The notes beneath the pieces were generated by a model that was given only the letters and a program-made list of their open reading frames with translations, did no database searches and was not told where the DNA came from. From positions 1 through 44,393 of IMG/VR virus record IMGVR_UViG_3300010430_000117: DNA of 44,393 nt. One strand, given 5' to 3'. This document shows, one piece after another, positions 2,977 to 44,393 of this stretch (position 1 is its first letter; the number at the start of each line of letters is the position of its first letter). This stretch comes from a virus. Made by a program: the position numbers and the translations under genes.

Positions 2977-3899
2977 AACTAGGAATACACAAGGATATTG
3001 ATATTGAAAAGTATCACGAGGATAGGACTATTTTGTCTTCAACAGGATTGAAAAAAGCTAAGAATAGTACAAGGGATTTCATTTATTATGTTCTTCATGG
3101 AAGTAAAGGAGGAAGTCATTTTGATTTCGGAAACGCTTTTGAGATTGCGGTAATGGATGCGGTTAATGGTACTAATTTCTTTGATAAAGAAGTAGCAGTA
3201 TTAGCTAGTGAAGAATGGGAACGGAAAGCCTTAGAACTGAACCCTGATTTAGTAAGTCCTAAAGCTTCAAAAGGATACAAGGAACTTAAAGCAAAGTTTG
3301 AAGCGGAAAATGATAGCAAGTATTTAATTAATGATGTTGGGGATACTGAAAGTGATTGGGCTTTACAACAAATGGTTAAGTCTTGCACTAATAACGAGGT
3401 TATAAGCCAACTTCTAAAAGGAACGGAATATCAAGTCAGTTTAGTCTGGGAGGACTTAGAAACGGGCTTAAAATTAAAAACTAGACCTGATGTTTGTAAG
3501 GCAAAGAAAAATGTAGTTGTTGACATTAAAACTTGCAAAGATGCTTCTCCACATGGATTTGCAAGAGATGCGGCAAACTTAGATTATCCATTGCAAGCGT
3601 GTATGCAAATTGACGGGGCTATTCAGACGGGTTTAATGGATACCGTAGATAGTTATTTTTGGTTAGCAGTCGAGAAAACACCACCTTATAATGTTGCTCT
3701 TTATGAGTTTCAACAAGAGGATATTAAGTTCTTCATGGACACGTATAGATTTTATCTGGATAGGTGCGCTAAAGGCTTAAAAGAATTGTCTGAACTAAAA
3801 GATTATGATTTAAGCGGTTTAAGCAGCTATGGTGAGCAAGCGGACAACAAGTTTGGAATACTTCAATTAGAGATACCTTTATGGTATAGGGGAATTTAA
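2973..3899 (+). CDS. RecE-like / PD-(D/E)XK exonuclease, 308 aa
   Basis: Probably resects double-stranded ends to give the single strands used by the Rad52-like protein, as in RecE/RecT and lambda Exo/Beta pairs. Visible motifs: FGNAFEIAVMD (52-62), matching the G-x-A-x-E helix of the YqaJ/Cas4/RecE group although the usual histidine is Phe; then RPDVC (D173), VVVDIKTCK (D184, K186) and YPLQACMQIDG (206-216). D173...D184-x-K186 forms the PD-(D/E)XK core. An ATGA overlap couples it to the annealing protein. Exact polarity is not visible. Confidence 0.78.
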   Translation: MKLGIHKDIDIEKYHEDRTILSSTGLKKAKNSTRDFIYYVLHGSKGGSHFDFGNAFEIAVMDAVNGTNFFDKEVAVLASEEWERKALELNPDLVSPKASKGYKELKAKFEAENDSKYLINDVGDTESDWALQQMVKSCTNNEVISQLLKGTEYQVSLVWEDLETGLKLKTRPDVCKAKKNVVVDIKTCKDASPHGFARDAANLDYPLQACMQIDGAIQTGLMDTVDSYFWLAVEKTPPYNVALYEFQQEDIKFFMDTYRFYLDRCAKGLKELSELKDYDLSGLSSYGEQADNKFGILQLEIPLWYRGI

Positions 3900-25138: not shown

Positions 25139-25939
25139 ATGAAAAAAATATCTTGGAATGGAATTGTTGATGGATATTATATATCTGAATATGGTGTTGT
25201 TTTCAGGAAACTAGTTAGTGGAAAATACAAACCCTTGAAACCTAAAAAGAACAGACAGAAAAGAAATGTAGTCTTACTTAAGACGGTTGAAAATAAATAT
25301 AGAGCCGTATTAGTATCTAGCATTGTTATGGAACATTTTATTGGAGGGTATTACAAGAAAAGGAAAATGGTACATATAGACGGAGATTTGAATAATTGTA
25401 GTATTTCAAATCTAAAATGGGCTAGAGGATTTGAAATGTCAATAGATAATTCTTATTTCAAAACAATCGACACATTAAACTTTAGATTAGACGACAAATT
25501 AGCCGTTAACTATATGCTTAACGGTGGTTTAGATAAACTCTATAATATTTTAGAGCTAAATAGGGGAATTGTCTACATAATAACTAAAAACAGATGGTTT
25601 TTAAGGTATCTTGACGAAGTAAAAAATATTGCCGTAGATAAACTAGAAAGGTGGATGGCTTCAGGTAGATACAAACCAGACGGCACGTTTAAGCATTCAG
25701 TAGTTAAGTTAGTTGTAAATTCAGTTAATGGCGCATGCTCAATATTAAAAAGACGTTTGATTAAAGAAGGAATACTTATGTCTTCTGTTGAAGATATAAT
25801 AGAAAAAAGCCAGTACGACATTAGAGATGCCGCTGGAGACAGGAAAATGCTAGTTGGTGTATTTGGTGACGGTATTATTAGCAACGATTGTAATTCAATA
25901 GAGGATGAGATAAGTGATATGTTTAATAGCCTTTCATAA
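25139..25939 (+). CDS. NUMOD4/HNH-related protein with an unusual C-terminal half, 266 aa
   Basis: The first 100 residues copy the shape of phage HNH homing endonucleases: a NUMOD4-like segment (ISWNGIVDGYYISEYGVVF) and an HNH-like one (MVHIDGDLNNCSISNLKWA). One His and the Asn-Leu are present, but the last His/Asn of the motif is not clear, so the nuclease may be inactive. The C-terminal 160 residues (about 107-266) are of another type, helical and basic to start and acidic at the end (DCNSIEDEISDMFN), which I cannot assign. It might be a DNA-binding regulator. Has its own promoter and stands between head genes and sugar genes. Confidence 0.6.
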   Translation: MKKISWNGIVDGYYISEYGVVFRKLVSGKYKPLKPKKNRQKRNVVLLKTVENKYRAVLVSSIVMEHFIGGYYKKRKMVHIDGDLNNCSISNLKWARGFEMSIDNSYFKTIDTLNFRLDDKLAVNYMLNGGLDKLYNILELNRGIVYIITKNRWFLRYLDEVKNIAVDKLERWMASGRYKPDGTFKHSVVKLVVNSVNGACSILKRRLIKEGILMSSVEDIIEKSQYDIRDAAGDRKMLVGVFGDGIISNDCNSIEDEISDMFNSLS

Positions 25940-25977: not shown

Positions 25978-26844
25978 ATGAAAACTTTAGTTACAGGAGG
26001 TAGAGGAATGGTTGGTAGCCATTTCAGCGAAAATTGTATTAAATTAGGTCGTGGTGATTACGATTTAAGGCGTATGGATAACGTATTAGAAATGATACGA
26101 AAGTACAATCCTAGAAAGGTTATACACTTAGCCGCAAAAGTAGGGGGTTTATATGATAACATGGCAAATCAAGCTACCTATTTCAATGATAACTTTCAAA
26201 TGAATTACAACATCATTAGGGCTTGTAATTTATTGAATGTTCCTGATTTAACGGTCATGTTATCTACTTGTATATTTCCACATGAACATCATGTGTTAGA
26301 TGTTAATGATATCCACGGTGGAGAACCTCACCCTACTAATTATGGATATGCTTATTCAAAGAGAATGGCTGAAGTAATGATTAGGGCGCATAATGACCAA
26401 TACGGTTCTAATTACAAAGTAGTAATACCAACAAACATCTATGGTGAGGGTGATAATTTTAATCTAAATACTGCTCATGTTATACCTGCATTGGTTCACA
26501 AGTTTTTCAAGGCTCAAAGGTTTGGTGAAAAGGTTATTATAAAAGGTGATGGTTCGGCTATTAGGGAATTTGTTTATGCCCCTGACGTAGCTAAGATATT
26601 AGAGGGTGATTATGAGCATAAAGCCGTGATAAGTTCTGGGAAAGGATATAGGATATTTGAGGTTGTGGAGTTGTTAAAATCAATGTCAAAGGTTACGGAT
26701 GTTGAATATGATTATAAAAGCACAAACGGACAACATATAAAGCAAACCCAAAACCAGCATCCATTTGATTATACACCTTTAGAGGTAGGGTTAAAACGCA
26801 CATGGGATTGGTTTAGTAATAACTACGATAAAGCAAGGAAATGA
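25978..26844 (+). CDS. fcl: GDP-L-fucose synthase (4-keto-6-deoxymannose epimerase/reductase), 288 aa
   Basis: Second enzyme of GDP-L-fucose synthesis: epimerises and then reduces GDP-4-keto-6-deoxymannose with NADPH. Short-chain dehydrogenase fold with TGGRGMVGSHF (6-16) for NADP, VIHLAAKVGG, STCIFP with C98 (equivalent to the catalytic Cys), YAYSK with Y124 and K128, NIYGEGDNFN, and HVIPALVHKF with H167. All catalytic residues of the E. coli enzyme have counterparts. Slightly shorter than usual (about 310-320). With the dehydratase gene at 27146 it completes the pathway from GDP-mannose. Confidence 0.9.
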   Translation: MKTLVTGGRGMVGSHFSENCIKLGRGDYDLRRMDNVLEMIRKYNPRKVIHLAAKVGGLYDNMANQATYFNDNFQMNYNIIRACNLLNVPDLTVMLSTCIFPHEHHVLDVNDIHGGEPHPTNYGYAYSKRMAEVMIRAHNDQYGSNYKVVIPTNIYGEGDNFNLNTAHVIPALVHKFFKAQRFGEKVIIKGDGSAIREFVYAPDVAKILEGDYEHKAVISSGKGYRIFEVVELLKSMSKVTDVEYDYKSTNGQHIKQTQNQHPFDYTPLEVGLKRTWDWFSNNYDKARK

Positions 26845-27149
26845 AACGTATTAAAACAAAGTTAATTATTTGGCTAGGAATTAAAGATTTGTGGGGTAGC
26901 TTGTATACTACTAATTCACAAATCGAGGATTTGAGATTTAAATGCGAATTTGGATTGAAAATAGGACAAAATATATCTTTTAAAAAAAATAGCATTCATT
27001 TAGGTGTTCAATCGGGAGATATGGTGATAACAGGAAAAAGCAATATAAAAGGTGATTTTTATTTACATGGAGTTGTTATTAAAGTTAGCGAGGGGTGTAA
27101 GAAAGGTGATTTGTTAACAATTAGAATAGAAGATAAGATTGATAAATGA
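26841..27149 (+). CDS. Hypothetical protein inside the fucose cassette, 102 aa
   Basis: ATGA overlaps on both sides place it between the two GDP-fucose genes. Begins with a basic and hydrophobic stretch (MKRIKTKLIIWLGIKDLWG), then beta-like repeats (SIHLGVQSGDMVITGKS, NIKGDFYLHGVVI) that could be the coils of a left-handed beta helix. I cannot name a family. Confidence 0.55.
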   Translation: MKRIKTKLIIWLGIKDLWGSLYTTNSQIEDLRFKCEFGLKIGQNISFKKNSIHLGVQSGDMVITGKSNIKGDFYLHGVVIKVSEGCKKGDLLTIRIEDKIDK

Positions 27150-28090
27150 AAGCTTTTATAACAGGAATAAGCGGTCAAGACGGTTCTTATTTATCGGAGT
27201 TACTATTGGAAAAGGGTTATGAGGTTCATGGCATAGTTAGACGTAACTCAATCAGCGAAAACCAAAGCCGTAGGATAGACCATTTAGACGTTAATCTTCA
27301 CTACGGGGATATGACAGACCAGACTTGTTTAGAAAGGTTGTTAGGTGAGATAAAACCTGATGAAATCTACAATTTAGCTGCTCAATCTCACGTAGGTATT
27401 TCTTTTGAAGTTCCTGAATACACTTGTCAAGTTGATGGGATGGGGGTTTTGAAACTATTAGAAGCTTATAAAAACCAATGTCCAGAGGCTAGATTTTACC
27501 AAGCGGGAACAAGTGAGATGTTTGGAAACAATGCAGGAAAAGACGGTTATCAAAGAGAAGATACACCAATGCACCCAGTAAGCCCATACGCTGCTTCTAA
27601 GGTGTTTGCTTTTAATTTATGTCGTATCTATCGTGAAGCCTACAAATTGCCTATAAGCAACGGAATACTGTTTAATCATGAAAGTCCGCGTAGAGGTTCT
27701 AATTTCGTAACTGCTAAGATTGTTAATACTGCTTTAGAAATAAAGAGAGGTGAGGCAGATAAAATAGTAATGGGTAATATTGAAAGTAAGCGAGATTGGG
27801 GACACGCTAAAGACTATGTGAAAGCTATGTGGTTAATGCTTCAAAACAAGCCTGATGATTATGTTTGCGCTACTGGTGAAACAGCGAGTGTTAGGGATGC
27901 TTTAAGGTTTGTTTTTGGTGAATTAGGGTTAGACTATAAAGACTATCTAAAACAGGATAGCAAGTACTTTAGAAAGAATGAATTGCACTACTTAAAAGGT
28001 GATGCAAGCCGTTTAAAAGAACTAGGTTGGAAACCTGAATACGATTGGAAGTCAACATTATTAGATATGATATATGCAGCCAAAAGATAA
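27146..28090 (+). CDS. gmd: GDP-mannose 4,6-dehydratase, 314 aa
   Basis: First enzyme of GDP-fucose synthesis: turns GDP-mannose into GDP-4-keto-6-deoxymannose. GISGQDGSYL (7-16) is the family NADP-binding start; NLAAQSHVGISFE follows; T122/E124 (GTSEMFG) and Y148-xxx-K152 (SPYAASK) are catalytic; FNHESPRRG (176-184) binds substrate. Length 314 is close to bacterial Gmd (about 340-370) and complete at both ends. ATGA overlap with the gene before. Sits 300 bases from its partner. Confidence 0.94.
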   Translation: MKAFITGISGQDGSYLSELLLEKGYEVHGIVRRNSISENQSRRIDHLDVNLHYGDMTDQTCLERLLGEIKPDEIYNLAAQSHVGISFEVPEYTCQVDGMGVLKLLEAYKNQCPEARFYQAGTSEMFGNNAGKDGYQREDTPMHPVSPYAASKVFAFNLCRIYREAYKLPISNGILFNHESPRRGSNFVTAKIVNTALEIKRGEADKIVMGNIESKRDWGHAKDYVKAMWLMLQNKPDDYVCATGETASVRDALRFVFGELGLDYKDYLKQDSKYFRKNELHYLKGDASRLKELGWKPEYDWKSTLLDMIYAAKR

Positions 28091-28259
28091 AGAGTTCTGG
28101 TTAAGTCTATCAAAGATTACAGACCCTAAATCAAAAGGGTTCAAACGGTCATTAGGTCAATCTTATAGCGATGCACCAGAAAGGGTTAAAAAAGAGTTAA
28201 GATTATTTTTAAGTATATTTATAAATGAAGATACTGGTAAAGATACCGTCAAGAAATAG
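28074..28259 (+). CDS. Small basic hypothetical protein, 61 aa
   Basis: ATG 28074 overlaps gmd by 17 bases and the next glycosyltransferase by 35. Basic and helical (KITDPKSKGFKRSLGQSY, VKKELRLFLSIFI). The double overlap suggests a translational coupler. No family seen; could be a non-functional overlap ORF. Confidence 0.45.
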   Translation: MQPKDKEFWLSLSKITDPKSKGFKRSLGQSYSDAPERVKKELRLFLSIFINEDTGKDTVKK

Positions 28260-28872
28260 ACCGCAAAAGCTTCTTAAATTATTAAAGGAGTACACGGAAA
28301 GTCAAACAACTAAAGATGTAATGTATTTAGTTTCCCTTGATGACAATGACCCCACCGCTACCTATCAGCTACAAAGTAAAATACTAAGCATGGCTGAAGA
28401 TATTATAATCCATATGGGTATATCAAAGAATAAGATAGCTGCTTGTAATAGGGATGTCTATAATTATAAGAATTGGGATATTTTAATTTTGGCTAGTGAT
28501 GACATGGAAGTTCAAGTAGTTGGATGGGATAAAATTATCATTGATGCTATGGGAAAAGATACAGACCAAGTATTATATTATCCAGACGGCTATACAAACT
28601 TAAATACAATGTGTATCTTGGGGAAAAAGTATTATGACCGCTTCGGGTATATCTATCATCCTGATTATATTTCTTTGTGGTGTGATAATCATTTTCAAGA
28701 AGTTGCACAAAGACTAGGAAAGGAAAAGAGATTTACAAAGGTTTTGTTTAAGCATCAACATCCTATGAATATAGGTAGTGGAAATGATGACCTTTATAAA
28801 AGGAATGAAAAGTATTATCACGAAGATAAAAAGACATTTGAACGGTATAAAAGAAACAATTTTGGACTATGA
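28225..28872 (+). CDS. Glycosyltransferase, GT-A fold, 215 aa
   Basis: Probable sugar transferase. N-terminal MKILVKIPSRNRPQKLLKLL is the opening of GT2-type enzymes (strand, then 'SRNRP' loop); LVSLDDNDP and WDILILASDDMEV hold two acidic pairs, the second likely the DxD/DDD donor site. A later HPMNIGSGNDDLYKRNE fits an acceptor region. It overlaps the gene before by 35 bases and ends in an ATGA overlap. Confidence 0.75.
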   Translation: MKILVKIPSRNRPQKLLKLLKEYTESQTTKDVMYLVSLDDNDPTATYQLQSKILSMAEDIIIHMGISKNKIAACNRDVYNYKNWDILILASDDMEVQVVGWDKIIIDAMGKDTDQVLYYPDGYTNLNTMCILGKKYYDRFGYIYHPDYISLWCDNHFQEVAQRLGKEKRFTKVLFKHQHPMNIGSGNDDLYKRNEKYYHEDKKTFERYKRNNFGL

Positions 28873-29447
28873 GATTATCTATCTTAATACCTAGCATTCC
28901 TGAGCGATTTGAAGCGGTTATTCCATTAGTAGACAAACTACAAAAGCAATCAGAAGGAAAAGAAGTAGAGATATTACTATTATGCGATAATAAGAAGATG
29001 TCCATAGGCTCTAAGAGACAAAAACTAAAAGAGTTAGCGATAGGTGAGTATTGGGCGTTTGTAGATGATGATGATGATATTTCAGAAGACTACATAGACC
29101 AACTATTAAAAGGATGTGAAAGTTGTAAGGATGTGATTACCTTTCATCAATGGAGTACTATTAATGGTGAAGGGTTCTTAGTTCAGTTTGGGTTAGATTA
29201 TGAAAACCAAGATGCAACACAAGTAGATGGACAATGGAAAAACATTAAAAGAAGTCCCTTTCATGTTTGCGCTTGGAAATCTTCAGTAGTTAAAAACTGT
29301 TTTTTTAGTGATAAGAACTACGGAGAGGATTGGGATTTTTGTAAGTTTGCAATTAAGGAAGTAATATCGGAACATAATATCCCTAAGATACTTCACTATT
29401 ATAAGTATGATGACCAAATAACGCAAGCATTTGAAAGCGATAATTAA
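28869..29447 (+). CDS. GT2-like glycosyltransferase, 192 aa
   Basis: Starts MRLSILIPSIPERFEAV; FVDDDDDIS (65-73) is the metal-binding aspartate run. GEDWDFCKFAI near the end (about 160) corresponds to the GT2 'ED' acceptor motif. It is a paralogue of the gene at 32498: both share the opening, SIG(S/K)KR, and DDDD positions. Soluble and small, with one GT-A domain and no membrane anchor. Part of the sugar cassette. Confidence 0.8.
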   Translation: MRLSILIPSIPERFEAVIPLVDKLQKQSEGKEVEILLLCDNKKMSIGSKRQKLKELAIGEYWAFVDDDDDISEDYIDQLLKGCESCKDVITFHQWSTINGEGFLVQFGLDYENQDATQVDGQWKNIKRSPFHVCAWKSSVVKNCFFSDKNYGEDWDFCKFAIKEVISEHNIPKILHYYKYDDQITQAFESDN

Positions 29448-30102
29448 CCTATCTACTGGTCGCTATGTAAAAGGGGCGCAAAGGCTAAGGAATAGTTTTA
29501 ATGACCCCGACATTGATTTATACACTTGGGATAGGGAGTATAAAATAGGTTCACCACCTCATAGAGAAAACCCCTACGCATTTAAGATATATGCCTTTGA
29601 AAAAGCATGGGAATTAGGTTATGAACAAGTGTTATGGTTAGATGCTTCTATTTATCCTGTAAAGCCTATGTTTCCCTATTTTAATCTGTTAGATGAGCAA
29701 GGTTATGTATTTGAGGAGGCTGGACATTGGGCAGGAACATAGACAAATGATAGGACATTAGAATACTTTGGAATAAGTCGAGATAAGGCGATGGAGATAC
29801 CTTTATTTAGTGCGGGCTTTATGTCATTAGATAGGACTTCACCAATGGCTATGGAGTTCTTTTATCAATGGAAGAAATCTATGGAAGCAGGAATGTTTAT
29901 AGGGGATTGGTCTAATGTGAATAAAACGGAAAGCCAAGATGCAAGATGTCAAGGGCATAGACATGACCTTTCTTGTGCTTCTATAATTGCTTATCAGCTT
30001 GGTATGCAGTTGGAGAGTGGAGGGACGTATATGGCGTATATTGGAGATGTTTATGGCGAACCAAATAAAACAGTAATTTTTCATGCAAAAGGGATAGTAT
30101 GA
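29431..30102 (+). pseudogene. Glycosyltransferase-like gene interrupted by an amber codon
   Basis: Two open segments, 29431-29742 and 29743-30102, are in the same frame and separated only by TAG at 29740-29742. The first half has NLSTGRYVKGAQRL and LWLDASIYPV (D71, GT-type); the second resumes NDRTLEYFGISRDKAM and GFMSLDRTSP, and ends with a histidine near VIFHAKG. TAG takes a place where TGG (Trp) would fit. It is not a genome-wide recoding, since TAG ends other genes (35756-35758, 38649-38651). So it is a fresh nonsense mutation, a case of readthrough, or a sequence error. The start is TTG 29431; an ATG at 29791 could start a short second product. Confidence 0.7.
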
Positions 30103-30311
30103 TAGAAGATATTGCATATTATGCTTTAGGAGGTTTATTAGGAGGGGTAGCTTTTATGATAATATCATTTATAGCTATAAACATATTTTTTTGGCGACAA
30201 AAAAGAAATCGCAACAAACCGAAAGGGTGTAAGAAAGGTGAGTATGAAATGTGTTCATTTTACACTGGCATTGAAAGGATTGGTATTGATTTATGTGATA
30301 AATGCAAATGA
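30099..30311 (+). CDS. Small membrane protein with Cys-rich tail, 70 aa
   Basis: ATGA overlap with the interrupted gene. One or two membrane spans (ALGGLLGGVAFMIISFIAINIFF), then a basic stop-transfer (WRQKRNRNKPK) and a C-terminal part with CKKG, MCSFY, and LCDKCK that may bind metal. Its stop is next to the methyltransferase start. Unknown role. Confidence 0.58.
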   Translation: MIEDIAYYALGGLLGGVAFMIISFIAINIFFWRQKRNRNKPKGCKKGEYEMCSFYTGIERIGIDLCDKCK

Positions 30312-30916
30312 TAGACCTAGCCCAAAGAGCATATTCCAACAAGGAAACATTACAGAACTCATTTGACTTAGCTTTAAAATGCAAGGACTTAAAAGGTGAT
30401 TTTGTAGAGTGTGGAGTAGCCGCAGGTAGTCAAGTAGCGGCAATGCACCGAGCAGCACCAAATAAAAAGATATGGTGTTTTGATAGCTTTGAGGGTATTC
30501 CATTGGCAGACCCTAAACATGATACTAGTCAGCCTGGCATTGGAAGAATAAAGCACAAAGAAAAAGATTTATTAGTAAGTTCTGGAATAACAAGTGTAAG
30601 CCTAAAACAAGTTAAACATCACTTAAAAGAGTGGCAATGCAACTTGAATAAATTTGAGTTTGTTGAAGGTTGGTTTGAAGAAACAGTAGAAAAAAGCAAA
30701 GTAAAATCAATATCTTTGTTGCGCCTTGATGGTGATTTGTATCATTCGACAAGGGTTTGTTTGGAGTATTTATATCCAAAATTAGTAAAAGGTGGTTACT
30801 TGATTATTGATGACTATGCTCTTGCAGGATGCTATAAAGCATTCCATGAATATTTCGGGGACATAGAAGTAACGAAAGTGCCAAATACTGAAACAGTAAT
30901 TTATATTCAGAAATAA
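30302..30916 (+). CDS. TylF/macrocin O-methyltransferase family protein, 204 aa
   Basis: SAM-dependent sugar O-methyltransferase of the TylF type. GDFVECGVAAGSQVAAM (32-48) is the SAM site; IWCFDSFEGIPLAD follows, then LLRLDGDLYHSTRVCLEYLY and GGYLIIDDYALAGC, all hallmarks of the family. The start may be ATG 30302 or 30308. Beside the glycosyltransferases it most likely adds a methyl to a sugar of the phage-made glycan. Confidence 0.88.
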   Translation: MQMIDLAQRAYSNKETLQNSFDLALKCKDLKGDFVECGVAAGSQVAAMHRAAPNKKIWCFDSFEGIPLADPKHDTSQPGIGRIKHKEKDLLVSSGITSVSLKQVKHHLKEWQCNLNKFEFVEGWFEETVEKSKVKSISLLRLDGDLYHSTRVCLEYLYPKLVKGGYLIIDDYALAGCYKAFHEYFGDIEVTKVPNTETVIYIQK

Positions 30917-31902
30917 TGGCAAACATAGTAATTACAAGTAACGGAAATTATATTAAAATTGATAGTGCAGAAACAATACCAAAGTCATACACATCCCCTA
31001 TTTATGCAAATTTTTTAAAAACCGAATGTAATTTTTCAAAAGATAAAAACGATAATTTAATAATTTACACCCCTTATGTGTCTTACACATTTGATACAGA
31101 TGACATTGCCTATCCAAGTGGAGACATTAACAATATAATAGATGCGATTTCATTATACTATGGAGGTAATACTGATTATAATACAGAGGTAGCACTAGGA
31201 AATGTTAGTGGGGCTGAAACATGGAATAAGTTTGGTTACAATCAGGATGTGGATGTAGGAACAGAAGTAGTAGCTTCTTTTGGTGCAATTTTCACACCTT
31301 TGACAACTGAAACTACCTTAACGATAGTGTCAACAAGTACAGATGATGATGATGGAGGTACGGGTACTAATTCAATAGTAGTCTATGGTATAGATGCAAA
31401 TAGGGATTTGGCTATTGAGGTAGTGACAATGAATGGAACTACTAATGTTGTGACTACTTCTGAATGGTTAGGTATTAATAGGGTGGCTATGTTTCTATGT
31501 GGAACTGGTAAAGTAAATGCAGGAACGATAAATGTAACAGCGACAACGGGAGGTAGTCAAATGGCTCAAATGCCCGTAGGTGATGGTGTGACGCAACAAT
31601 GCATTTTTCATGTGCCTAGAAATTACACTTTTATCGCAGAATGGTTGTCAGCTCACGCAATAAAGCCAAGCGCTCAAGACCCTATTGTAACGATTAAGAT
31701 GTGGGTATATTCAGCCGTTTCAAATGGGAGGCAAGAAGTATATAGAAAGTCTTTAGATACTTCCGTAGAAACAAGTGTAGATGAAAATCCTAACATCCCT
31801 TTTCCTATAAGTGAAAGTACGGTAGTTTGGCTAGAAGCTACAACTGATAAGAATGATACCATAGTAGAGGGTAGATTTAGTGGAAATTTAATTAGAATAT
31901 GA
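30916..31902 (+). CDS. Virion structural protein inside the sugar cassette, 328 aa
   Basis: Not an enzyme: beta-rich, with LTIVSTSTDDDDGGTGTNS and VYGIDANRDLAIEVVTMNG, which match a phage structural module seen in many marine phages ('TIVSTSxxDxxxGTGxxxVxVxGLDxNY'). Probably a decoration, fibre or tail component. It sits between two methyltransferases, with a TAATG join to the first. Its Ser/Thr-rich surface makes it a candidate acceptor for the phage glycan (inference). Confidence 0.6.
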   Translation: MANIVITSNGNYIKIDSAETIPKSYTSPIYANFLKTECNFSKDKNDNLIIYTPYVSYTFDTDDIAYPSGDINNIIDAISLYYGGNTDYNTEVALGNVSGAETWNKFGYNQDVDVGTEVVASFGAIFTPLTTETTLTIVSTSTDDDDGGTGTNSIVVYGIDANRDLAIEVVTMNGTTNVVTTSEWLGINRVAMFLCGTGKVNAGTINVTATTGGSQMAQMPVGDGVTQQCIFHVPRNYTFIAEWLSAHAIKPSAQDPIVTIKMWVYSAVSNGRQEVYRKSLDTSVETSVDENPNIPFPISESTVVWLEATTDKNDTIVEGRFSGNLIRI

Positions 31903-32501
31903 AAACATACAGTCAAGGTCAAGAACAGGACAAGATTTTAGAATACTTTAGAGAGTATGATTATGGTACTTTCTTAGATATTGGGGCGTATCACCCAGAA
32001 ACATTTAGTAACGTCAGGGGGCTTTATGAACTAGGATGGAAAGGGGTTTTGATAGAACCTGCTAAAGAGAACTTTGAAAATATACGTGATTACTATATCC
32101 GAGATAAGGAAATAGAAGTGGTAAACACTTGCATAGGTGATTATGATGGTGAAATAGAGTTCTTTGATAGTCAAGGAGATGCGATAGGAACAACGGATAA
32201 GTCTCATAGAGATTTATGGGCTAAGAATTATGGAGTACCTTATCAGTCTACAACGGCTAGTATAATGACCATTGAAACGCTATTATCAAAGACTGATTAT
32301 GAAACATTTGACTTTATAAATATTGACACTGAGGGTACTAATTATGAAATATTAATCACTATTCCTTTGCATCGTTTAGGGTGTAAGATGCTTTGTGTAG
32401 AATGGAACTCTAAAGACTTCACTAAGTACAATACTTACATGACCAATCAAGGTTATAGATTGATTTTTAAAAACGCTGAAAACCTAATTTACGTCCTTTG
32501 A
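31899..32501 (+). CDS. FkbM-family methyltransferase, 200 aa
   Basis: SAM-dependent methyltransferase. TFLDIGAYHPETFSN (24-38) forms the SAM loop, VLIEPAKENFEN places the acidic ribose-binding residue, and FINIDTEGTNYEIL (about 139-152) is the FkbM signature 'K/DxDxEGxE'. Such enzymes often methylate sugars or lipids. With the TylF-like gene this is the second methyl transfer of the cassette. ATGA overlap with the structural gene; the next gene overlaps its stop. Confidence 0.87.
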   Translation: MKTYSQGQEQDKILEYFREYDYGTFLDIGAYHPETFSNVRGLYELGWKGVLIEPAKENFENIRDYYIRDKEIEVVNTCIGDYDGEIEFFDSQGDAIGTTDKSHRDLWAKNYGVPYQSTTASIMTIETLLSKTDYETFDFINIDTEGTNYEILITIPLHRLGCKMLCVEWNSKDFTKYNTYMTNQGYRLIFKNAENLIYVL

Positions 32502-33046: not shown

Positions 33047-33077
33047 CAAAACCTAAGCAGCATCAAAACGCAGTTTA

Positions 33078-33106
33078 GCTAACTGTTAGCAGTAATAAAA
33101 ATTACT
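33078..33106. repeat. Tandem hairpins at the boundary of the sugar block and the minus island
   Basis: GCTAAC-T-GTTAGC (33078-33090) is an inverted repeat, and AGTAAT (33091-33096) with ATTACT (33101-33106) is another, loop AAAA. They lie where plus-strand and minus-strand transcripts meet and could end both. No T-run follows on either side. Confidence 0.5.
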
Positions 33107-33275
33107 TGCTTCGGTTTCCATATTTACGCTTTCTCCTACCTTCAACTTTTGCTTTATTTGCATGGTAGGTGCATAGCCACTTATCTGGGTGATATTCTTG
33201 GTTTTTAATTGTTGCTTCTCTTGTGCAATTTTCATGTTCACATTTCATATCCGTAATTTTTACATACTGCTAACA
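33084..33275. repeat. Inverted repeat flanking the minus-strand zinc gene
   Basis: The left arm (from 33084, TGTTAGCAGTA then about ten more bases) is repeated in reverse at the right (ending TACTGCTAACA, 33265-33275). Both share GTAATTTTTA next to it, with a one-to-two base difference between. In total 21 bases match. The arms enclose the gene at 33102-33248, like the ends of a small mobile unit, or an RNA stem around the ORF. The outer ends read TG...CA. No target duplication is clear. Confidence 0.55.
33102..33248 (-). CDS. Small zinc-binding protein on the minus strand, 48 aa
   Basis: ATG at 33248 reading leftward to TAA at 33102. CEHENC (3-8) and CTYH (26-29) form a C-x4-C...C-x2-H site; a very basic end follows (KVEGRRKRKYGNRSK), which fits nucleic-acid binding. 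Flanked by the inverted repeat described at 33084-33275. Second in a presumed minus-strand transcript after the ribbon-helix-helix gene, with a hairpin between. Could be a cargo gene of a small mobile unit. Confidence 0.6.
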   Translation of the reverse strand: MKCEHENCTREATIKNQEYHPDKWLCTYHANKAKVEGRRKRKYGNRSK

Positions 33276-33279
33276 ATAT

Positions 33280-33306
33280 GTAACAGGCATTAAAACGACC
33301 TGTTAC
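33280..33306. repeat. Perfect 8-bp hairpin between the two minus-strand genes
   Basis: GTAACAGG (33280-33287) pairs with CCTGTTAC (33299-33306), loop of 11 bases. On the minus transcript it lies nine bases after the stop of the first gene and 32 bases before the second start, so it may weaken read-through or be a protein-binding site. No U-run. Confidence 0.6.
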
Positions 33307-33314
33307 ACTCACCG

Positions 33315-33485
33315 TTATTTATTATCAGTTTCTGTTAGTATAGTCATTCCCTTTAACATCTTATTTACAGCCCTTGTAAAAGATAGATGCCGTTTGTGTT
33401 TCATTTTATATTGGTGTTGAAACTCAATTACTCGCTCGTAAGCTTCCCCACATATCTGAATTGTTCTTGTCGTACAATCTGCCAT
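33315..33485 (-). CDS. Ribbon-helix-helix DNA-binding protein on the minus strand, 56 aa
   Basis: ATG at 33485 reading leftward to TAA at 33315. A beta strand (TRTIQIC, 6-12), a helix (GEAYERVIEFQHQYKM) and a second helix (LSFTRAVNKMLKGM) give the Arc/MetJ/CopG shape; it would act as a dimer at palindromes. A suitable one, TACTA-5-TAGTA (33490-33504), overlaps its own transcript start, and the divergent capsid promoter is 40 bases away. Probably an autorepressor that also controls the head operon. Confidence 0.65.
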   Translation of the reverse strand: MADCTTRTIQICGEAYERVIEFQHQYKMKHKRHLSFTRAVNKMLKGMTILTETDNK

Positions 33486-33489
33486 TAGT

Positions 33490-33504
33490 TACTATTAATT
33501 AGTA
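33490..33504. promoter_or_regulatory. Candidate operator between the divergent promoters
   Basis: TACTA (33490-33494) and TAGTA (33500-33504) form an inverted repeat with a five-base centre. It overlaps the expected start of the minus transcript. Likely site for the ribbon-helix-helix protein (inference). Confidence 0.4.
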
Positions 33505-33505
33505 G

Positions 33506-33513
33506 CAAATATA
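33506..33513 (-). promoter_or_regulatory. -7 box (TATATTTG on the minus strand) of the minus-strand island
   Basis: The plus strand reads CAAATATA, so the minus strand has an exact TAnnTTTG box, 20 bases before the ATG at 33485. It shows that the minus genes are truly expressed from their own promoter. Confidence 0.65.
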
Positions 33514-33548
33514 CAAATCACCTTTTAATTAACAGCCTTTCATAGCTA

Positions 33549-33556
33549 TATTTTTG
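33549..33556 (+). promoter_or_regulatory. -7 box (TATTTTTG) of the head operon, leaderless
   Basis: Exact TAnnTTTG ending only four bases before ATG 33561, so the mRNA should start at or near the first codon. Divergent to the minus promoter at 33506. Confidence 0.65.
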
Positions 33557-33560
33557 TAGC

Positions 33561-42285: not shown

Positions 42286-42662
42286 ACTGGAACGACTACC
42301 CAAATTTTAGCAAGTCAGAATTTGACTGCAAGCATACAGGTGAAAACGAAATGAAGCCCGAATTTATGTCTAAGCTTCAAGAGTTAAGGGATAGATACGG
42401 TAAGTCTATGCGTATTACTTCGGGATATAGAGATAAGACACACCCGATAGAAGTTAAAAAAACGGTATCAGGAGCGCATACAAGCGGTAAGGCAGCAGAT
42501 ATAGCAGTAGATAGGGGAAACGCTTACCAAGTGTTAAAGATAGCCTTAGAATTAGGCTTTACGGGAATAGGAATACAACAGAAAGGTTCTGGTAGGTTTA
42601 TTCATTTAGACACGATTGAGAATAATTCTAGTCAGCCTCGCCCGTCTATTTGGAGTTATTAA
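42282..42662 (+). CDS. Endolysin, M15 peptidase (VanY-like, Peptidase_M15_3), 126 aa
   Basis: Cuts the peptide bridges of peptidoglycan at the end of infection. ITSGYRDKTHP (45-55), SGAHTSGKAADIAV with H66 and D73, and RFIHLD with H109 are the zinc ligands of the M15 family; IGIQQKGSGR precedes the last. Length is usual for the single-domain phage forms, with no signal peptide and no binding domain, so it needs a holin for release. ATGA overlap with the gene before. Confidence 0.92.
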   Translation: MNWNDYPNFSKSEFDCKHTGENEMKPEFMSKLQELRDRYGKSMRITSGYRDKTHPIEVKKTVSGAHTSGKAADIAVDRGNAYQVLKIALELGFTGIGIQQKGSGRFIHLDTIENNSSQPRPSIWSY

Positions 42663-42670
42663 ATAATTAC

Positions 42671-42678
42671 TATATTTG
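42671..42678 (+). promoter_or_regulatory. -7 box (TATATTTG) of a short RNA
   Basis: Exact TAnnTTTG just after the endolysin stop. The transcript would run about 70 bases to the terminator at 42725, passing a perfect 7-bp hairpin (TACAAAG with CTTTGTA, 42688-42710 or so). Confidence 0.55.
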
Positions 42679-42724
42679 AAACCTATTACAAAGTTTCGCC
42701 GCTTTGTATTTGGCAATTGAACGG

Positions 42725-42753
42725 AAAGCCTCACTTTAATCGGTGGGGCTTTT
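42725..42753 (+). terminator. Terminator after the endolysin
   Basis: AAAGCCTCAC (42725-42734) pairs with GTGGGGCTTT (42743-42752), one T-G pair, followed by T. Shares its loop TTAATCGGT with the capsid terminator at 35774. It may end the endolysin mRNA or the short RNA from 42671. Confidence 0.8.
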
Positions 42754-42771
42754 AAACCTAAAAAATTAATC

Positions 42772-43008
42772 ATGGCAAAAAAAATATTTTTAGTAGAAAT
42801 AGAATTTACAGGAGTTGACCAATGGTATGTTAAAGATGGTGAACCGTTATACGCTAATGGTGATAGTGTAATAATTCCAGTAATGACAAATAACGCTTAC
42901 AACGCTAAAAGGAAAGTAGATAATAGTTTTTGTGGTTCTGAATATCCATCATTTAATATTAAGAGCGTGGAGAAATGTGATGAATTTTTATTCAAGCCTA
43001 TATTATAA
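42772..43008 (+). CDS. Hypothetical protein, 78 aa
   Basis: ATG 42772 after an A-rich spacer (aaacctaaaaaattaatc), just past the terminator, so it depends on read-through or on RNA from 42671. Beta-rich: KKIFLVEIEFTGVDQWYVKD, then SVIIPVMTNNAYNAKRKV. No family recognised. Confidence 0.6.
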   Translation: MAKKIFLVEIEFTGVDQWYVKDGEPLYANGDSVIIPVMTNNAYNAKRKVDNSFCGSEYPSFNIKSVEKCDEFLFKPIL

Positions 43009-43015
43009 AAAACAC

Positions 43016-43023
43016 TACCTTTG
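43016..43023 (+). promoter_or_regulatory. -7 box (TACCTTTG) of a short RNA
   Basis: Exact TAnnTTTG in the gap after the small gene; RNA would reach the terminator at 43059-43092 after about 60 bases. Confidence 0.5.
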
Positions 43024-43058
43024 TAATTCATTCGGGCGGCTATCCCTTTATAAAAATT

Positions 43059-43092
43059 CCTCATTCCATTTGTTTGGTTTGGGGTTTTTTTT
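43059..43092 (+). terminator. Terminator upstream of the non-coding RNA
   Basis: CCTCA (43059-43063) pairs with TGGGG (43080-43084), inner CCA with TGG, then eight T (43085-43092). It separates the small RNA from the next transcript. Confidence 0.65.
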
Positions 43093-43093
43093 A

Positions 43094-43101
43094 TATCTTT
43101 A
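43094..43101 (+). promoter_or_regulatory. Likely -7 box (TATCTTTA) of the structured RNA
   Basis: TATCTTTA overlaps the end of the T-run of the terminator; the first transcribed base would be about 43106. Same box as at 5835. Confidence 0.5.
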
Positions 43102-43410
43102 CCACAAATAAATGCGGGGTTACCACAGATTGACCGCTAAAAGGCTAGCCGTCTGAAAACAAGCTCAATCTTTATAAGTTTATAAACCCTATTCTCGGCA
43201 ATGTCGTCAAGGGTACAACCGAGCATAAAAGTCATGGCGTAGTTGAACGCTGATTAAAGTAAAGGGGGTTTTAGGTGCAAACTAGGTGAATAAAGAAAAG
43301 CCTACTAGCGAAAGATAGAAGTTCAACAAAACCTTTTTAGGTATTTCTATCGGGGGATGACTAAAACTAATAGGCTTGCTAAAACAGGGATGACTGTAAT
43401 ACCCTTGTTA
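43102..43410 (+). ncRNA. Structured non-coding RNA, about 300 nt, unknown class
   Basis: No gene fits this stretch. It has many possible helices: AGATTGA (43127-43133) with TCAATCT (43165-43171); ACCCT (43186-43190) with AGGGT (43210-43214) interlocked with CTCGG (43194-43198) and CCGAG (43219-43223), a pseudoknot; GCGT (43237-43240) with ACGC (43247-43250); AAGCCTA (43298-43304) with TAGGCTT (43371-43377); inside it GATAGAA (43314-43320) with TTCTATC (43345-43351) and ACCT/AGGT (43331-43342). GTTGAAC (43242-43248) could also pair with GTTCAAC (43321-43327). It has its own promoter and an upstream terminator. It does not read as tmRNA, RNase P or a group I intron. The 3' end is uncertain. Confidence 0.65.
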
Positions 43411-43465
43411 TGTTTGTTTGAATAAAAAAACTAATTTTACAAAATATGCAAAAGTTGCACATACC

Positions 43466-44086
43466 ATGAAAGAGCGTTTAATATACTTTGCGATAATACT
43501 AGGCTTAATCATTCTATTAGTACTTCAAAGAGAATGCACACCACCACCTCAAACAAAGTATGTAACGACATCAGACACTACAATAACACCAAAGGAAGTA
43601 AAAGGAAGTGATACACTCATAAACATACCAATAGATACTACCAAAGAATTTAACCAAGATTTATCAGCACTACCCGAAATATTAATTGACACGCTTTATA
43701 TTGATACCACTCCTATTTTAGTTGTAGATACTCAAGCTATAATACAAATGTTCCTAGACACTAACATTCAGAAATCAGCATATTCAGATAGTTCACTAAC
43801 TATTGACTTTGAAGACTGGATTACACAAAATAGAATAATAAGACGAGAATTAGAATACACCTTTAATTATAGTGATACTACCATCCACAACAATATCGTC
43901 CAAAAACAACGTGCCAAATGGTTTATTGGTGGAATGTTAAGTGGTGGTAAGAATACACTAGGCGTTACACCTCAACTCTACATCTTAACAAGAAAAGACC
44001 ACCTTTATCATGTAGGCACTAACCTACTAGAAGAGCAGCCAAATCTATCTGTTGGCATCGGTTGGAAGCTTCGTTTTAAACGCTAA
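43466..44086 (+). CDS. Membrane-anchored periplasmic protein, possible spanin-like, 206 aa
   Basis: ATG 43466 gives MKERLIYFAIILGLIILLVLQ, one N-terminal membrane span, then a Cys and a Pro/Thr-rich part (CTPPPQTKYVTTSDTT) and a long periplasmic region; TTG 43418 would add 16 residues without purpose. The end (NLSVGIGWKLRFKR) looks like a beta-strand terminus of outer-membrane type. Lies near holin and endolysin, so it may help outer-membrane disruption, but there is no clear spanin coiled coil. Confidence 0.55.
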   Translation: MKERLIYFAIILGLIILLVLQRECTPPPQTKYVTTSDTTITPKEVKGSDTLINIPIDTTKEFNQDLSALPEILIDTLYIDTTPILVVDTQAIIQMFLDTNIQKSAYSDSSLTIDFEDWITQNRIIRRELEYTFNYSDTTIHNNIVQKQRAKWFIGGMLSGGKNTLGVTPQLYILTRKDHLYHVGTNLLEEQPNLSVGIGWKLRFKR

Positions 44087-44187: not shown

Positions 44188-44393
44188 ATGGAATTTGAAT
44201 TTGCAAAGTACACAGAAATCACAGAATTATACAAAAAGCATAGCTTATCATTGCAAGATGGTGACGGATATATAAGGTTCTTTATATGCCCAGATGTGCA
44301 TACGTTTTGGTTGGCTAGAGTTATTGAAGGATTTAACGAAAGTTATGAAAAAGAAGAAGGCTCATTTTTAATTGAGCGAAACAATATTGAAAA
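44188..44393 (+). CDS. 5' part of the first early gene, continuing at base 1
   Basis: ATG 44188 after an A-rich spacer (ttaaaaactaaaagaa). The frame runs off the end; through the circular join it stops at 271 (117 residues in all). The N-terminal part MEFEFAKYTEITELYKKHSL is helical, and VHTFWLARVIEGF follows. Function unknown. Confidence 0.8.
   Translation, partial: MEFEFAKYTEITELYKKHSLSLQDGDGYIRFFICPDVHTFWLARVIEGFNESYEKEEGSFLIERNNIE
44271..44393. repeat. Right copy of the 123-bp terminal direct repeat
   Basis: Identical to bases 1-123; see the left copy. Confidence 0.93.

Follow-up and report, generated by a model that had tools for sequence, protein, structure and literature searches.

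Only a few large structured RNAs are known from phages. GOLLD and ROOL span 600-800+ nt, are often found near tRNA islands, and show both conservation and covariation in many phages (PMC12286853). The locus described here is similar to them in that it is phage-encoded and gene-free, with a proposed pseudoknot and loop-loop pairing, and the function is unknown in both cases. However, it covers only ~300 nt, is not close to tRNAs, has no relatives that we could find, and matches neither model. Another described system, the fourU thermometer of SP-beta blyA, is a structured 5' leader of a phage lysis gene (PMC10586365). Our candidate also lies directly upstream of a putative lysis gene and on the same strand, but it is much longer, has no identifiable sensor motif, and its regulatory role is only proposed. 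Shine-Dalgarno sequences are absent from the presumed host phylum (PMC6847099), so a mechanism that masks them is not transferable to this locus. The candidate shares with tmRNA its size range, a pseudoknot, and a G-rich 5' start (GGGGTTACC), but it lacks a tRNA-like domain and a tag frame, and it gave no match to RF00023 or with ARAGORN. Finally, the packaging RNA of phi29, which is 174 nt long, is tied to podovirus packaging. Complementary loops, through which RNA molecules could in principle associate, are common to this phage RNA and to our candidate, whereas the phage studied here has a PBSX-like terminase and the candidate has no Rfam match.

The window, i.e., the whole stretch of DNA that was analyzed (44,393 nt), is a single IMG/VR virus record (IMGVR_UViG_3300010430_000117). 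The record begins and ends with the same 123 bases (positions 1-123 and 44271-44393), a direct terminal repeat that indicates a complete, circularly assembled (circular or circularly permuted) phage genome of ~44.3 kb. Around 93% of the genome is coding and 7% intergenic, with almost all genes on the plus strand. Promoters of Bacteroidota follow the pattern TTTG/TAHHTTTG (PMC6847099). The plus strand has five exact promoters of this type (TTG-N17..22-TAnnTTTG), three of them within the 7% of intergenic DNA. The leaders of genes in related phages are A-rich and, by reading, without evident Shine-Dalgarno sequences. We infer that the host belongs to the Bacteroidota.

The capsid, the portal, and one tail protein had no match among 50,697 phage records, and among the proteins tested recognizable relatives were limited to those of the terminase, the M15 endolysin, and an exonuclease-like protein. 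In IMG/VR, the true relatives are four fragments (G005 to G008), whose terminases are 53-55% identical to that of the phage and whose capsid and portal proteins, where covered, are 45-49% and 32-39% identical. The phage thus appears to be part of a little-known lineage, whose structural proteins barely match those of any isolated phage. The structural module contains sugar-nucleotide and modification genes (25978-32501), which encode an epimerase/dehydratase family protein, a GDP-mannose 4,6-dehydratase, TylF and FkbM methyltransferases, and glycosyltransferase-like ORFs. Some of them are also present in G005, G006, and G007, and they possibly modify virion or host glycans. ORFs resembling HNH/NUMOD homing endonucleases, recognized by reading translations, are scattered over the genome (4746-5174, 10689-11276, and 25139-25939).

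The initial annotation proposed that positions 43102-43410 encode a structured non-coding RNA of about 300 nt with its own promoter. It regarded this as the longest gene-free stretch apart from an island of minus-strand genes. This is accurate, as only the island (33047-33560) exceeds the gene-free interval, which extends from a 78-aa ORF ending at 43008 to a lipoprotein-like ORF whose most plausible start is the ATG at 43466 (Table 1). The frames of the interval contain at most short stop-free runs and their six-frame read-through matched no Pfam family, in line with the claim that the stretch is non-coding. The island itself carries two small minus-strand ORFs, one of 48 aa with Cys and His residues (33102-33248) and one of 56 aa (33315-33485). 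The latter has a 43% match at the equivalent place in G007 (25689-25853) and no Pfam match.

Table 1. Features of the gene-free interval and of the adjacent gene, in positions of the window.
Feature	Positions	Strand	Basis
Gene-free interval, from the 78-aa ORF to the lysis lipoprotein-like gene	43009-43465	+	ORF lists; empty six-frame Pfam search
TACCTTTG, match to the Bacteroidota -7 consensus, possible promoter without a clear -33 TTG	43016-43023	+	Consensus TAHHTTTG (PMC6847099)
Terminator-like hairpin followed by T8	43059-43092	+	Fold of -10.9 kcal/mol, then TTTTTTTT
TATCTTTA, weak -7-like box, TTG 17 or 21 nt upstream	43094-43101	+	Lacks the near-invariant G
Candidate structured RNA, GC 39.6%	43105-43412	+	Pairings, pseudoknot and helix-chain statistics, G+C
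Putative H-type pseudoknot, ACCCT/AGGGT and CTCGG/CCGAG	43186-43223	+	0.5% of shuffles, 6/882 genome windows
Alternative pairing over long range, CAAGGGTA/TACCCTTG, the outer member of five nested perfect helices	43208-43407	+	Pairings in the sequence
GTTGAAC, loop of a small hairpin (43237-43251)	43242-43248	+	Complements GTTCAAC (43321-43327) of the apical hairpin
Local domain of highest stability, GATAGAA/TTCTATC enclosed by AAGCCTA/TAGGCTT	43298-43377	+	z = -2.37 for 43296-43380
Lipoprotein-like lysis (spanin-like) gene, possible cis target	43466-44086	+	Signal peptide with the end ...LVLQREC, read from the sequence

The interval is located where the late genes meet the early genes. This position, together with several inverted repeats, would suit an element acting as DNA, for instance as a replication origin, a packaging site, or a recombination site, rather than an RNA. 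We regard this as improbable, since no iterons or tandem direct repeats were found, the stretch is not AT-rich, and its inverted repeats are mostly widely spaced. The product of the downstream gene has distant relatives in IMG/VR (27-31%), and may act as a spanin. Of the 71 plus-strand genes (mean GC skew +0.23, sd 0.11), this is the only one with a negative skew, about -0.16, and comparable genes in other phages have skews of +0.12 to +0.17. In view of this unusual skew, the lysis cassette may be a recent import.

All the pairings put forward in the initial annotation are present in the sequence. The outer helix of the 3' domain joins AAGCCTA (43298-43304) to TAGGCTT (43371-43377) and encloses the pairing of GATAGAA (43314-43320) with TTCTATC (43345-43351). 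The pseudoknot combines ACCCT (43186-43190) and AGGGT (43210-43214) with CTCGG (43194-43198) and CCGAG (43219-43223). An alternative long-range pairing had also been mentioned, which most likely corresponds to the helix between CAAGGGTA (43208-43215) and TACCCTTG (43400-43407), with eight Watson-Crick pairs. This helix and the pseudoknot compete for one and the same AGGGT. It is the outermost of a nested chain that continues inwards with 43230-43235/43390-43395, 43268-43274/43379-43385, and the two helices of the 3' domain. A loop-loop contact between GTTGAAC and GTTCAAC is possible from their complementarity, and a palindrome, GGCTAGCC, is found at 43143-43150.

Are these structures more than expected by chance? 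Judged by folding energy, the stretch as a whole is not. The minimum free energy (MFE) of 43102-43410 on the plus strand is that of shuffled sequence (z = +0.15 against dinucleotide shuffles, with 55 of 100 shuffles as good), and the minus strand is if anything better (z = -1.88). The only clearly stable part is 43296-43380. Among 120-nt windows inside the candidate, only 43291-43410 comes near the best 10% of the genome, while most are around the genome median. For individual motifs, the answer is perhaps yes. We defined a pseudoknot of equal quality by two 5-bp helices containing G+C with short connections, and found it in 0.5% of 2000 shuffles and in 6 of 882 genome windows (0.7%). The chain, in which five perfect helices are nested (35 bp), was equaled in 0.4% of 500 shuffles, but in real sequence equal chains occur in 8 of 287 windows of the phage genome (2.8%) and 20 of 325 windows of its relatives (6%). 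Both statistics were picked after the structure was seen. As to composition, the G+C content is 39.6% in the candidate versus 32.3% in the other spacers of the genome (Fisher p = 0.013), and the plus strand contains 108 A, 78 T, 69 G, and 53 C. An RNA with the plus-strand sequence would be expected to show such richness in A, left unpaired, and such an excess of G over C, owing to G-U pairs.

These numbers bear directly on the explanation that the stretch is a non-functional spacer or the remnant of a lost gene, where helices found by eye are to be expected in 300 nt of such composition. The MFE, the unremarkable internal windows, and the share of ordinary windows with an equal chain (2.8-6%) all fit this explanation. 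The rarity of the pseudoknot and of the chain in shuffles (each <1%, though picked after the fact), the G+C content above that of other spacers, and the lack of any Pfam trace of a decayed gene speak against it. Moreover, phages seldom retain 300 nt of unused DNA. On balance, a spacer or remnant is a serious contender, if a doubtful one.

Part of the claims concerning transcription were not confirmed. A terminator was indeed reported ahead of the stretch, and a terminator-like hairpin followed by T8 is found there. The promoter assigned to position 43094 is unconvincing, because TATCTTTA deviates from the Bacteroidota -7 consensus (TAHHTTTG) at a G that hardly varies among the promoters of Flavobacterium johnsoniae (PMC6847099). 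There are 8 -7-like sites with this G-to-A change on the plus strand and 6 on the minus strand, i.e., the plus strand is not enriched. The best -7 match of the gene-free interval, TACCTTTG at 43016, lies upstream of the terminator-like hairpin. At the other end, the 3' hairpin of the stretch (-9.5 kcal/mol) lacks a T run. Hence, there is no clear RNA end before the lysis gene at 43466, and the chances of a long mRNA leader are no lower than those of a free-standing RNA.

Still, the stretch could encode a compact, trans-acting phage RNA of ~300 nt with its own promoter, possibly self-associating. The hairpin just upstream and the -7-like box at 43094 are compatible with such a molecule, as are the pseudoknot, the palindrome, and the complementary loops, and GOLLD and ROOL illustrate that orphan structured RNAs exist in phages (PMC12286853). 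Yet, the promoter is weak, the 3' end has no convincing terminator, the MFE is within chance, and no relatives were found. In addition, no antisense match elsewhere in the phage genome exceeds 12 nt, which is within chance. We see a free-standing RNA as a serious contender too, though a rather unlikely one.

In agreement with the initial annotation, which could not match the stretch to tmRNA, RNase P, 6S, or group I introns, no known family was recognized. The search with 4227 Rfam families at the gathering threshold, which include RNase P, 6S, SRP, group I and II introns, GOLLD, ROOL, and OLE, gave no match, and a relaxed search (E<=5) only returned one chance snoRNA match (E=1.1). ARAGORN found neither tRNA nor tmRNA, and the dedicated tmRNA model (RF00023) was silent in the phage genome while it was positive in 14 control genomes. 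That the stretch belongs to a known family (tmRNA, RNase P, group I or II intron, riboswitch) but has diverged very far would agree with the size and with the presence of a pseudoknot, but given these searches this explanation is very improbable and already largely refuted. Three more specific candidates were rejected. By manual inspection, an HDV-like ribozyme built on the pseudoknot would lack the P3 helix and the J4/2 segment for the catalytic C; a group I intron would lack recognizable P7 elements, besides the absence of an Rfam match; and a type III toxin-antitoxin RNA is at odds with the lack of unit repeats and of an adjoining toxin gene.

We also searched for homologs of the stretch. 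It has no relative by blastn in 50,697 phages or 72,556 plasmids. Exact scans of IMG/VR with a 14-mer and a 17-mer gave 69 and 8 matches, respectively, none of which extends past the motif, all being due to chance or to coding sequence. Peptides translated from its frames had no match in IMG/VR and GTDB genomes. Against 62 viral records linked by a common terminase or lysis gene, blastn returned matches of 14-27 nt at most. The best short match, in G005, was rejected because it falls within a reading frame that resembles a glycosyltransferase. For the 3' domain, a covariance model (R1) was run over 1.03 Mb and another 30 records and recovered nothing but itself, and Rfam searches of four relatives (G008, G010, G012, and G017) were empty. 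The contigs of G005, G006, and G007 stop short of the corresponding place. In the remaining fragment, G008, which extends over a comparable lysis lipoprotein gene (3174-3692), there is no gap >200 nt and no such leader. The relatives of the downstream lysis gene (L002 to L007) have no gap upstream of it. As no relative was found and G008 lacks the leader, the element appears to be specific to this phage or its close kin. Its absence from those relatives in which the place could be examined is also what a mere spacer would give.

Overall, of the proposed RNA of ~300 nt with its own promoter, the gene-free status, the helices, and the pseudoknot stand, while the global fold and the promoter were not confirmed. 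Since the stretch resembles nothing known, has no relatives, and folds as expected by chance, it is a candidate rather than a demonstrated RNA. We consider it a weakly supported candidate for an orphan structured phage RNA rather than for a new category. That it represents an undescribed class of compact phage RNA of ~300 nt, with an H-type pseudoknot, an exclusive long-range helix, and a loop-loop contact, and expressed with lysis genes in a little-known lineage of Bacteroidota phages, is conceivable but unlikely.

The explanation that we favor, albeit tentatively, is that of a structured plus-strand leader of the lipoprotein-like lysis gene at 43466, acting in place or after processing. We favor it because the stretch is on the same strand as the gene and directly upstream of it, with no clear terminator before the ATG. 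The pairings, which seem unusual as an ensemble, would be consistent with a leader. So would the G+C content raised over that of other spacers (39.6% vs 32.3%), the richness of the plus strand in A with G>C, and the retention of the stretch in an otherwise gene-dense genome. Against a leader stand the plus-strand MFE, equal to that of shuffles, with a minus strand that is if anything better; the lack of homologs and hence of covariation; and the equally long helix chains in ~3-6% of ordinary windows. The stretch is also far longer than the F. johnsoniae leaders, which average 33 nt (PMC6847099), and the nearest syntenic relative covering a comparable lysis lipoprotein gene, G008, has no such leader.

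If the stretch is a leader, it would form a structured, non-coding segment of a late or lysis transcript made on the plus strand. Its 5' half would form the pseudoknot until TACCCTTG, once transcribed, captures AGGGT and closes the nested domain (43208-43407). These two mutually exclusive folds might then set the amount and timing of the lysis protein. Such an RNA, if real, would enlarge the small set of known large structured phage RNAs, and would adjoin lysis genes in a lineage that barely matches isolated phages in its structural proteins. At present it is a single-sequence candidate, and its value is that of a testable target.

A second intergenic region, between the endolysin gene and the 78-aa ORF (42650-42760), contains an exact Bacteroidota promoter (TTG-N18-TATATTTG). 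It is followed after ~70 nt by a strong terminator-like hairpin (AAGCCTCAC...GTGGGGCTTTT, -14 kcal/mol), with no gene in between, making this region a possible candidate for a small RNA.
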